A stretch of DNA of 33,949 nt from Fidelibacterota bacterium (GTDB taxonomy: Bacteria; Fidelibacterota; UBA8477; JABMPR01). Under the pieces are notes generated by a model that was not told the origin of the DNA, made no database searches, and saw only the letters and a program-made list of their open reading frames with translations. The first letter of the stretch is position 1. Each line of letters begins with the position of its first letter. This document shows, one piece after another, positions 6,566-9,078 of the stretch. The position numbers were made by a program, and so were the translations under genes. The stretch is from NCBI GenBank assembly GCA_013203185.1, contig JABMOS010000049.1, positions 1 to 33,949 of the forward strand, given 5' to 3'.

Positions 6566-7756
6566 CTAAAATCCAGGTATATCCGCTTTCTCATGGTGGA
6601 GTGGAATACCATTATCATAGTCGATTCGTTGAGGCTCCGATTGCATTAACCCCGGGAATTGATTATACAGACTTTTGGCAAAGAGATGATCGAGATGCTC
6701 GTTGCTTTCAGGACTCCAGCCCATAACACGCTCCCAGATTTCAGCTGATTCCATACAGAAATAAATAAACAGATCATCACCACCATAATAACGCAGAGAG
6801 TTATATACCGTTCGGTACATTTCCAGACGCAGGGGTTTTGGATATCGCATTTTCCCATCCATCCCACGAATCAACTCAGCAAACATGATCTTGGATTTAG
6901 GGAACTTCTCCAGAACCTTGTCCTTCATTTCTGGCGGGAAACGCAAGGATCCAATTGATATCCAGGCGACGTTTTTGGGCTCCACCACTTCAAACAACTG
7001 ACGGATCAAATCAGGATAGCTTTGCTTCCACTCTTCATGGAAGAGCAGGGGGTCGAAATGAAAGCCAATCTTATAGCCCTTTTCCTGAACTTGTCGCATC
7101 GCCTCGAGGCGCTCGTTCAGCGAAGCAGCCTTGTGCTCTTCAGCGTCAATAATAACCTGGGGATTCACTGACCAGGAAACCACGGTGTGACCTTTGTGGT
7201 CCAACTCCAGAAGGTTCTCAATCCGATTGGACTTGGTCTTCAGTTCCAGGAGCACATTGGGCAATTCGGCAAAGTATTCAATAACATCTTTTGAATACTC
7301 AGAGGAGGAGTCAAAGGCCAGACTATCAGACAATTCCCCTGTTCCAATACGGAAAAATCGGTTAGGCTGTGTAGCAATCTTGTCTTTTACCTCAGTCAGC
7401 AGTTTTTCTGTATTGGCATAGACAGTGGTTACTGGATTATTCAAATAGAATTGCAGAATGCAGTAAGTACAATCAATGGGACAATTGCTGGTCTGATTGA
7501 TAACATGGTAATTGCAGCAGCGGTAGGTTCTATCTGTGCCAGGACACTGCTTGACTGTATGACCCTGTTTCTCAGTGAGCAGGATATCACGCTTGGCAGG
7601 TGTTGATTCCTGGTTAAACATATTTTCTTTATCAGCTTCAGTGACCTCTTGTTGGATTACCGTAGCCTGGGGATTGTTATCTATATATCGTTGGACTAAT
7701 TCCTGATCAGCAACTTTCTGATCAACAATGATCCGAGTTATTTTTGGTTCTTTCAT
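6566..7756 (-). CDS. Spore-photoproduct-lyase-like radical SAM protein
   Basis: A 396-aa radical SAM enzyme of the SPL (SplB-like) family. The motif CPIDCTYCILQ gives Cys92, Cys96 and Cys99 in the CX3CX2C spacing typical of SPL. The rest follows the SPL layout: GELSDSLAFD (about 140-149), the TKSNRIENLLELDHKGHT strand region, VVSWSVNPQVI and GYKIGFHFDPLLFHEEW. Two features differ from classical SPL. Extra cysteines (Cys71, Cys80, Cys81) precede the cluster, and by eye the hydrogen-donor cysteine (Cys141 of B. subtilis SPL) aligns to the non-cysteine GEL segment. The gene starts 6 bp after a ParB-like gene and is clearly its operon partner. A DNA-lesion or other C-C-bond substrate is inference; nothing here suggests sporulation. 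Confidence 0.85.
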   Translation of the reverse strand: MKEPKITRIIVDQKVADQELVQRYIDNNPQATVIQQEVTEADKENMFNQESTPAKRDILLTEKQGHTVKQCPGTDRTYRCCNYHVINQTSNCPIDCTYCILQFYLNNPVTTVYANTEKLLTEVKDKIATQPNRFFRIGTGELSDSLAFDSSSEYSKDVIEYFAELPNVLLELKTKSNRIENLLELDHKGHTVVSWSVNPQVIIDAEEHKAASLNERLEAMRQVQEKGYKIGFHFDPLLFHEEWKQSYPDLIRQLFEVVEPKNVAWISIGSLRFPPEMKDKVLEKFPKSKIMFAELIRGMDGKMRYPKPLRLEMYRTVYNSLRYYGGDDLFIYFCMESAEIWERVMGWSPESNEHLDHLFAKSLYNQFPGLMQSEPQRIDYDNGIPLHHEKADIPGF

Positions 7757-7762
7757 AGGACC

Positions 7763-8683
7763 TTATATATGTTTGAATATGTTCTTAAAAGCTGGTGAAT
7801 TTAGCTTTTCCAGTGAATGCTCAAGATCTTCTTCATCCTTCGCATGGAAAGCAATTTGGACACCCTGTTGTTCAAAATAGGGATCCCATTTTACTTTCAT
7901 GGAATCAGGGAGTTGTGCAGCTTCCAGGGTTTCACTTAGATCCACACCAGCTTGATTTAGGGAGGGGAAACGTGCCTTGTTAATTTTTTCGCGGATTTCC
8001 AGCACGGCGAGGCGATTGTCTTCGTAAGGTGTATCTGCCATTTCCCAGAGACCCATTTCCTCAGCTTTGGTCTTGAAATCAACATCGTCATTTTTGCTCA
8101 TTTCCCAGACATTCTGGATGATCTCAGCAGTCATATTGATCCCAATTTTAAGATTTGTAATAAATCGCTCGACCCATTCGAGATGCCCTTCAGCCCGTTG
8201 GAAAATCAAAGCTCTTTTGAGACTTAGATCCTTATCAATGATAAAGGTCTGGAGTGAATTGGGCAATTTTAAGAGAAACAGAACCTGATCGATGAGCTTC
8301 TCTCTGGGAGCAAGCTCCAGGGCAGGTAAAATTCGTCCAGCCAGAATGGGACGGGGGACACCCAGATCAATTGCTGCTCTGGTGAGGAGCGCTTTATCCA
8401 TGAGATTCATGGGGCTATAGTATTCAATAACCAGCTGGATCAATTCCAGGGTGCTATCAGTATCTTCAATGAGATAGACTGGGACGGTAGGTTTTCCTGC
8501 TTCCTGATCAGCCTGAAAACGATGTATATCTCCAACAATCTTGATGCAGGATGTGGATTGATAGGCCAATATTGGTCTGGAAAGTTTACCCTGTTTGAAA
8601 TCGTCACGCTGATAGGGTAAGGCAGAAAAGCTCGAATGTATGGTGGGACCGACGGTTGTCAGTTCTTTAACTGTGATCTTCAT
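7763..8683 (-). CDS. ParB/sulfiredoxin-fold protein with ParB-like helical region
   Basis: A 306-aa protein whose N-terminal 90 residues look like a ParB nuclease/CTPase-type fold. An early strand region is followed by VGDIHRFQADQEAG (residues 50-63), corresponding to the ParB G-x-x-(H/R)R..A box, and then VPVYLIED. The middle (about 92-165) resembles the ParB helix-turn-helix region: PMNLMDKALLTRAAIDLGVP, then LQTFIIDKDLSLKRALIFQR. The C-terminal third is not recognised. I prefer the ATG at 8683; a TTG three codons upstream is possible. It is the first gene of a two-gene unit with the SPL-like enzyme 6 bp downstream. There is no ParA nearby, so plasmid or chromosome partition is unlikely. 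It may guide or regulate the enzyme on DNA, which is inference. Confidence 0.65.
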   Translation of the reverse strand: MKITVKELTTVGPTIHSSFSALPYQRDDFKQGKLSRPILAYQSTSCIKIVGDIHRFQADQEAGKPTVPVYLIEDTDSTLELIQLVIEYYSPMNLMDKALLTRAAIDLGVPRPILAGRILPALELAPREKLIDQVLFLLKLPNSLQTFIIDKDLSLKRALIFQRAEGHLEWVERFITNLKIGINMTAEIIQNVWEMSKNDDVDFKTKAEEMGLWEMADTPYEDNRLAVLEIREKINKARFPSLNQAGVDLSETLEAAQLPDSMKVKWDPYFEQQGVQIAFHAKDEEDLEHSLEKLNSPAFKNIFKHI

Positions 8684-8756: not shown

Positions 8757-8786
8757 TAAAAAACCTCACTACAATTAGAGGTTTTT
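8757..8786 (-). terminator. Terminator at the end of the asparaginase-lipoprotein unit
   Basis: AAACCTC (8761-8767) pairs with GAGGTTT (8778-8784) around a 10-nt loop. On the minus strand the stem runs into a T tract. It overlaps the lipoprotein stop codon at 8785-8787. Confidence 0.6.
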
Positions 8787-9078
8787 AGCTTGTTTCTTTT
8801 TTCCTCGCCAGTGAAAGACCACCGAAGCCACTAATGATGGCCATATAAAACCCGAAATCATACCACCAGCCTGTATTGTTTGGGTCATAGACGCGGGTGT
8901 GATCATTAAAAAAGCCCACAATCAATGAGAGGGGAGCGATCCACCCATGCCAGACACCCTTGAAAAATCCTGAAGGGGCTTGCCCCATATTTTGTACAGG
9001 GTTAGGCATACATGATGTGAAAACTATGAGAATTAATAGCGTGGTAATGGTTAGCAATATGAATTTGTTAAGTTTCAT
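8785..9078 (-). CDS. Small lipoprotein with one or two membrane segments, unknown function
   Basis: A 97-aa protein with a lipoprotein signal: basic start MKLNK, hydrophobic core, and a lipobox-like VFTSC placing the modified cysteine at residue 23. The mature part has short hydrophobic stretches (about 45-57 and 74-90) around a TGWWYDFGF block. I recall that block from widespread small uncharacterised envelope proteins. A good Shine-Dalgarno (GAGGAGAT) precedes the ATG. It follows the one-domain asparaginase gene by 14 bp on the same strand and is followed at once by a terminator, so the two genes form an operon. No function can be assigned. Confidence 0.78.
   Translation of the reverse strand: MKLNKFILLTITTLLILIVFTSCMPNPVQNMGQAPSGFFKGVWHGWIAPLSLIVGFFNDHTRVYDPNNTGWWYDFGFYMAIISGFGGLSLARKKETS

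Follow-up and report, generated by a model that had tools for sequence, protein, structure and literature searches.

The question raised by this locus is what a protein of the ParB family may be doing immediately upstream of a radical SAM enzyme that belongs to the spore photoproduct lyase (SPL) superfamily. A common annotation for SPL-like proteins of non-sporulators is that of a DNA repair enzyme, and what such enzymes do outside spores is a long-standing question. The two genes considered here come from Candidatus Neomarinimicrobiota, and the stretch of DNA that was analysed, 33,949 nucleotides long, is referred to below as the window. A sequence-only reading of it had described a two-gene unit on one strand, with a gap of 6 bp, and had proposed that a DNA-sliding or DNA-binding clamp is joined there to a radical enzyme in a module for DNA-lesion repair or for modification of DNA or nucleotides. 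The layout, which was confirmed, is as follows:

7763-8683, minus strand: ParB-like gene, 306 aa counted from ATG, encoding a ParB paralogue
6566-7756, minus strand: SPL-like radical SAM gene, 396 aa, ATG start
7757-7762, minus strand: intergenic gap of 6 bp between the two genes, which share the same strand
8759-8786, minus strand: short hairpin (AAAACCTC...GAGGTTTT, T run), read from the sequence, 3' of the upstream lipoprotein gene
8785-9078, minus strand: small lipoprotein gene upstream of the ParB-like gene, syntenic within the genus, with a putative hairpin terminator at its end

The hairpin at 8759-8786 is a probable boundary of a transcription unit, and because it separates the pair from the lipoprotein gene, the ParB-like and SPL-like genes look like a transcription unit of their own in this genome, with no further gene in it, as had been claimed. 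The pair was also said to lack a ParA partner, and indeed no ParA-type open reading frame adjoins it in the window. Two ParB-family matches are present in the window genome (G000), the second of which, a genuine ParB-family match, lies apart from the pair.

Folds and motifs of the two proteins

Taken alone, the ParB-like protein of the window matched no Pfam family; PF02195 was matched by 21 of its 50 relatives, and a profile of the family matched ParB structures in the PDB (1.6e-11). AlphaFold2 models of both proteins were built on alignments of 50-51 relatives, and with the model of the ParB-like protein (pLDDT 92.0) Foldseek ranked ParB/Noc first (E 4e-6), the Noc DNA-binding domain being aligned to it with a TMt of 0.67. 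When the family was compared by hhalign with genuine ParBs of related genomes (99.1%, E 1.5e-18), the alignment spanned positions 36-291 of the genuine ParB. Because it covers the N, middle and C domains, the protein is, as judged from its profile, a full-length ParB paralogue, made up of a ParB/Srx N-domain, a ParB-type helical/HTH middle domain and a ParB-type C-domain. The ParB fold proposed earlier was thus borne out, the N-terminal domain included.

The proposed sliding clamp is a different matter. The GDIHRFQA box that had been noted in this protein is present, and it coincides in position with ParB's GERR(Y/F) box. The roles of the ParB CTP motifs, GE(R)R(Y/F) and ENLQR, were taken from PMC8494293. 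The window protein has DIHRF for GERR(Y/F) and EYYSP for ENLQR, and its Asp falls at the essential Gly of the CTP box, the residue whose replacement in B. subtilis ParB abolishes CTP binding (PMC8494293). Since this Gly is replaced and ENLQR is missing, a CTP sliding clamp is unlikely in the window protein, and this part of the sequence-only reading did not hold. Across the 50 members of the family, Gly of the GERR box is kept in 40 and Arg in 34, the hydrolytic Glu is usually Phe or Ile, and ENLQR is largely lost; in PadC of Myxococcus, a box of this GF(K/R)R-like type binds CTP and does not hydrolyse it (PMC8494293). Only a few residues, R239, P241 and E272, are kept in the C-terminal part.

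For the second gene, an SPL fold had been read from its CX3CX2C motif. The motif is present as C92-x3-C96-x2-C99, the protein matches PF20903 (SPL, 6.5e-33), and the AlphaFold2 model (pLDDT 90.4) retrieved SPL first in Foldseek (4RH0, E 9e-23, TM 0.72/0.83), so that the fold was corroborated. Its identity with SPL holds only in part, as it scores 135.4 bits against the TIGR04070 equivalog, under the curated cut-off of 400, and two functional residues are replaced. In Bacillus SPL, Cys141 is the H-atom donor, Tyr99 a radical relay and Tyr97 a SAM-binding residue. Over an alignment of 51 sequences, on which motif conservation was scored, CX3CX2C, the Tyr97(Bs) equivalent (Y98) and a GTGE motif are invariant. 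The Cys141 site is the Glu of GTGE in all 51, as is also seen in a direct alignment to B. velezensis SplB, and the Tyr99(Bs) site is I100 in the window and Ile, Val or Phe in 51 of 51.

Three extra cysteines (C71, C81 and C334) are invariant in the same 51 sequences, and C80 is nearly so. In a comparison with the Bs and Gt enzymes, C71 aligns with Bs S77/Gt S76, and the H-atom donor of C. acetobutylicum SPL is C74 (PMC5368176); the Gt S76 site, and thus C71, corresponds by inference to this clostridial donor. Simple loss of the SPL H-donor was dropped for this reason, and return of the H atom via C71 is possible. A four-Cys auxiliary cluster (C71, C80, C81, C334) is weakened by a Gly at the C80 position in Aminicenantes (L152), and a three-Cys cluster (C71, C81, C334) may possibly be formed. 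Queuine lyase (QueL) was also considered, and none of the top Foldseek matches of the model supported it.

Pairing of the two genes across genomes

We scanned 84,980 species genomes with the SPL-like protein and kept the best 80 relatives. The genomes are mostly MAGs, and the phylum names are those given in MAG titles: Neomarinimicrobiota, KSB1, Aminicenantes, Calditrichota, Deltaproteobacteria, Omnitrophota, Elusimicrobia, Cloacimonadota and Gammaproteobacteria. In 57 of these best 80 genome matches, which come from several MAG-labelled phyla, the SPL-like gene is immediately preceded by the ParB-like gene on the same strand, with a stop-to-start spacing mostly of -8 to +25 bp, into which the 6 bp of the window fits. 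The sequence-only reading had made its case depend on such adjacency in other genomes, and it is conserved there. As for the unlinked cases, in 9 of 12 genomes (labelled Deltaproteobacteria, Calditrichota or Omnitrophota, or unassigned) a ParB-like gene distinct from genuine ParB is kept elsewhere, and the 3 of 12 without it are small (1.1, 1.8 and 1.5 Mb) and probably incomplete.

Among 245 Neomarinimicrobiota genomes, 59 carry the two genes together, 3 and 4 have only one or the other, and 179 lack both (Fisher p 6.5e-48, with counts uncorrected for phylogeny). All but one of the single-gene exceptions are drafts in which the SPL-like gene is cut at a contig end or completeness is 57-72%; in one genome (G119, 88% complete) nucleosidase-GT2-ParB is present and the SPL-like gene was not detected. 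None of the 72 Neomarinimicrobiota genomes having only other SPL-like types carries the ParB-like gene. Distances of the two proteins are correlated in a mirror-tree comparison (r 0.875), which shared ancestry alone could yield, and mean identity is 21% for the ParB-like protein versus 44% for the SPL-like enzyme. In genus g36 (G079/G085) and in genus g17 the SPL-like gene has moved off from the ParB-like gene and both are retained; in g17 it adjoins dnaE.

Since the two genes are adjacent and co-occur in different families and MAG-labelled phyla, the pairing is not a matter of chance. One might still object that the adjacency is an artefact, due either to the shared ancestry of one lineage or to MAG contamination, given that the genomes are mostly MAGs and that identity within a genus is high. 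However, many families and several MAG-labelled phyla show it, and genomes in which the genes were independently unlinked keep both of them, which contradicts an artefact and leaves it with hardly any probability. A phage or plasmid origin was likewise rejected, as a pattern scan of viral contigs turned up relatives of neither protein, phage records gave two distant SPL matches only (22-23% identity), and no ParB-like gene was found on plasmids.

Some other arrangements of SPL-family genes were seen as well. A relative of the window genome (G018, contig C168; L090:5528-8315) has two tandem divergent SPL-like genes beside the main copy. In Deltaproteobacteria (L143:3595-7922, L146, L147, L148) the SPL-like gene forms an operon with genes for a DUF4931/GalT-like protein, a SagB-type nitroreductase, a THEP1-type NTPase and a ThiI/NFACT-R-like PP-loop protein. 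On a plasmid of Deinococcus sp. QL22 (L241:1325-5825), the gene for an SPL-family protein whose Cys141 position is occupied by Glu neighbours those for uracil-DNA glycosylase and DinB, which places a related branch in a setting of DNA repair.

A nucleosidase and a glycosyltransferase linked to the pair

By clustering neighbour genes and then reading the gaps between them, we found further genes linked to the pair. An operon of the order nucleosidase-GT2-ParB-SPL occurs in Neomarinimicrobiota families f5, f9, f12 and f13; in the window genome the nucleosidase and GT2 genes overlap as a separate operon on another contig (C34). ParB-less families f10, f17 and f29 have the order GT2-nucleosidase-SPL-like, with an SPL-like gene of another type, and at two Omnitrophota loci (L230:1372-3388, L231:357-2322) GT2 is directly followed, or overlapped, by a second SPL-like gene, with no ParB-like or nucleosidase neighbours. 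In Fusobacterium vincentii (NZ_CP084075.1, L239:76-1947) a PNP/MTAN-like nucleosidase domain is fused to an SPL-superfamily radical SAM domain in a protein of 623 aa. Co-occurrence of GT2 and any SPL-like gene in Neomarinimicrobiota is 108/27/13/97, counted in the same order as above and likewise uncorrected for phylogeny.

The nucleosidase, whose gene is outside the window, is of the PNP_UDP_1/MTAN type. It matches PF01048 and MTAN structures (5e-23), its catalytic-type Glu/Glu/Asp, the MTAN-type residues, are invariant as E14, E147 and D170, and its best NCBIfam match is HpnG (3e-22). The GT2 is a subfamily of its own with high conservation (mean column identity 61%), and it resembles polysaccharide-type GT2 enzymes. 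The pair is genomically tied to this dedicated glycosyltransferase and to the MTAN-like nucleosidase. GT2 is not obligatory everywhere, because genus g17 (f6), where the pair exists, is without it save for one partial match, and because its orthologue is absent from most KSB1-type genomes searched.

Possible functions and comparison with known systems

Lesion repair was one of the functions suggested by the sequence-only reading. In this scenario, the SPL-like enzyme would directly reverse a thymine lesion, be it spore photoproduct or something similar, and the ParB paralogue would scan DNA or load the enzyme on it. SPL-family relatives in other bacteria are predicted to be SOS-regulated (PMC3323433), and Deinococcus relatives adjoin repair genes; the whole-length SPL fold, Y98 as the SAM-binding residue, C71 at the inferred clostridial donor site and the retained HTH and C-domain of the ParB type are all consistent with such a role. 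On the other hand, donor Cys141 has become Glu, relay Tyr99 has become Ile, and the TIGR04070 score is 135 against 400. Repair genes are not enriched around the pair either, DnaE and SSB being neighbours in two subclades only. Lesion repair is not favoured because it leaves the ties to GT2 and the nucleosidase unexplained, and we regard it as unlikely. Of the module first proposed, the folds and the adjacency hold; as its function, DNA repair or modification is possible but not favoured.

DNA hypermodification systems are common in viruses, and the lack of relatives in viral contigs speaks against the idea that the radical enzyme functionalises a base (e.g. the thymine methyl), that the ParB paralogue targets DNA and that GT2 glycosylates the modified base. 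Nor do a GT2 of polysaccharide-type resemblance, a nucleosidase that is not of the DNA-glycosylase type, and core GT2/SPL-like pairs that do without any ParB-like protein fit it well. This idea would account for the combination of a DNA-binding fold, GT2 and an SPL active site that lacks the donor Cys of Bacillus, and SPL C141A, which lets go of a trapped thymine-methyl radical (PMC3742179), offers a precedent in its TpT-SO2- adducts; nevertheless, we hold it to be improbable. Just as improbable, in our opinion, is that the ParB paralogue chiefly serves as a regulator or a scaffold (e.g. in transcription or localisation), with no part in the chemistry, and that the SPL-like product is unrelated to DNA. 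Fast drift of the ParB-like protein, with three residues fixed, would agree with this, but the co-occurrence of 59/3/4/179 is too strict for an optional regulator, and other SPL-like types need none.

Genome context points to an undescribed pathway rather than to ordinary spore DNA repair. We therefore rank above lesion repair, and the latter above hypermodification, the still tentative reading that a radical SAM enzyme, a nucleosidase and a glycosyltransferase act in such a pathway with a ParB paralogue as partner, the pair being obligate. In the futalosine (MqnE/MqnB) and hopanoid (HpnH/HpnG) pathways, a radical adenosylation step is succeeded by the action of a nucleosidase. Neither of these pathways applies, because key enzymes are missing: squalene-hopene cyclase is above cut-off in 0 of 60 genomes of relatives, which rules out the hopanoid side-chain pathway (HpnH/G/I), and MqnE is absent from the window genome and reaches its cut-off in no more than 4 of 245 genomes, which rules out the futalosine menaquinone pathway. 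It is for this reason that a new pathway of the same logic is favoured.

What we infer of its chemistry, step order and substrate, and of the part played by the ParB paralogue, is as follows. The SPL-like enzyme would cleave SAM, and the resulting 5'-deoxyadenosyl radical would attack, or add to, a substrate bound or positioned by the ParB paralogue; the nucleosidase would then strip adenine from an adenosyl-containing product or by-product, and the glycosyltransferase would decorate the resulting compound. Against this pathway it may be said that the nucleosidase could merely hydrolyse the 5'-dAdo by-product, and that a ParB-family partner would more naturally be a DNA-binding protein. The SPL-like enzyme appears to act together with the nucleosidase and GT2, and one branch of it to have acquired a ParB paralogue as partner. 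With somewhat greater reserve, we propose that this paralogue, having given up partitioning (and, in the window lineage, the CTP pocket too), became an obligate partner of an SPL-fold radical SAM enzyme, and that together with the nucleosidase and glycosyltransferase they make either a glycosylated compound of adenosyl origin or a modified nucleic acid, so far undescribed. If true, a ParB-fold protein has been recruited to work alongside a radical enzyme, and the nucleosidase, GT2 and fusion provide a function-predicting context for a large group of SPL-like proteins in non-sporulators, whose role becomes directly testable with four genes. Our search of open-access papers found none in which SPL is connected with ParB, or with a nucleosidase and a glycosyltransferase.

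Compared with SplB (TIGR04070, PF20903; PDB 4FHC-G, 4RH0), the SPL-like enzyme shares the whole-length fold, CX3CX2C, the Tyr97(Bs) equivalent and an invariant Lys and Arg in the barrel. It differs in falling under the equivalog cut-off, in GTGE for the Cys141 box and Ile for Tyr99, in the extra invariant C71, C81 and C334, in a C-terminal extension with YFCME, and in its link to ParB-like, GT2 and nucleosidase genes instead of splA. TIGR03886 (spore photoproduct lyase family protein, non-sporulators) belongs to the same superfamily and some of its members are also without the Bacillus Cys141, but the window protein reaches 71.9 bits against a cut-off of 437.55. ParB/Noc/Spo0J proteins align with the ParB-like protein in the N-domain, the HTH-type middle domain and the C-domain, whereas the window protein has no ParA partner, DIHR in place of GERR, and no ENLQR. 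PadC-type ParB-fold proteins resemble many ParB-like members in a GF(K/R)R-like box and in having no canonical ENLQR (PMC8494293), although the window protein lacks the Gly too and the architecture of PadC differs. With MqnE/MqnB and HpnH/HpnG, finally, the system has in common the coupling of a radical SAM enzyme to a PNP/MTAN-type nucleosidase and, in the hopanoid case, a GT2 as well.
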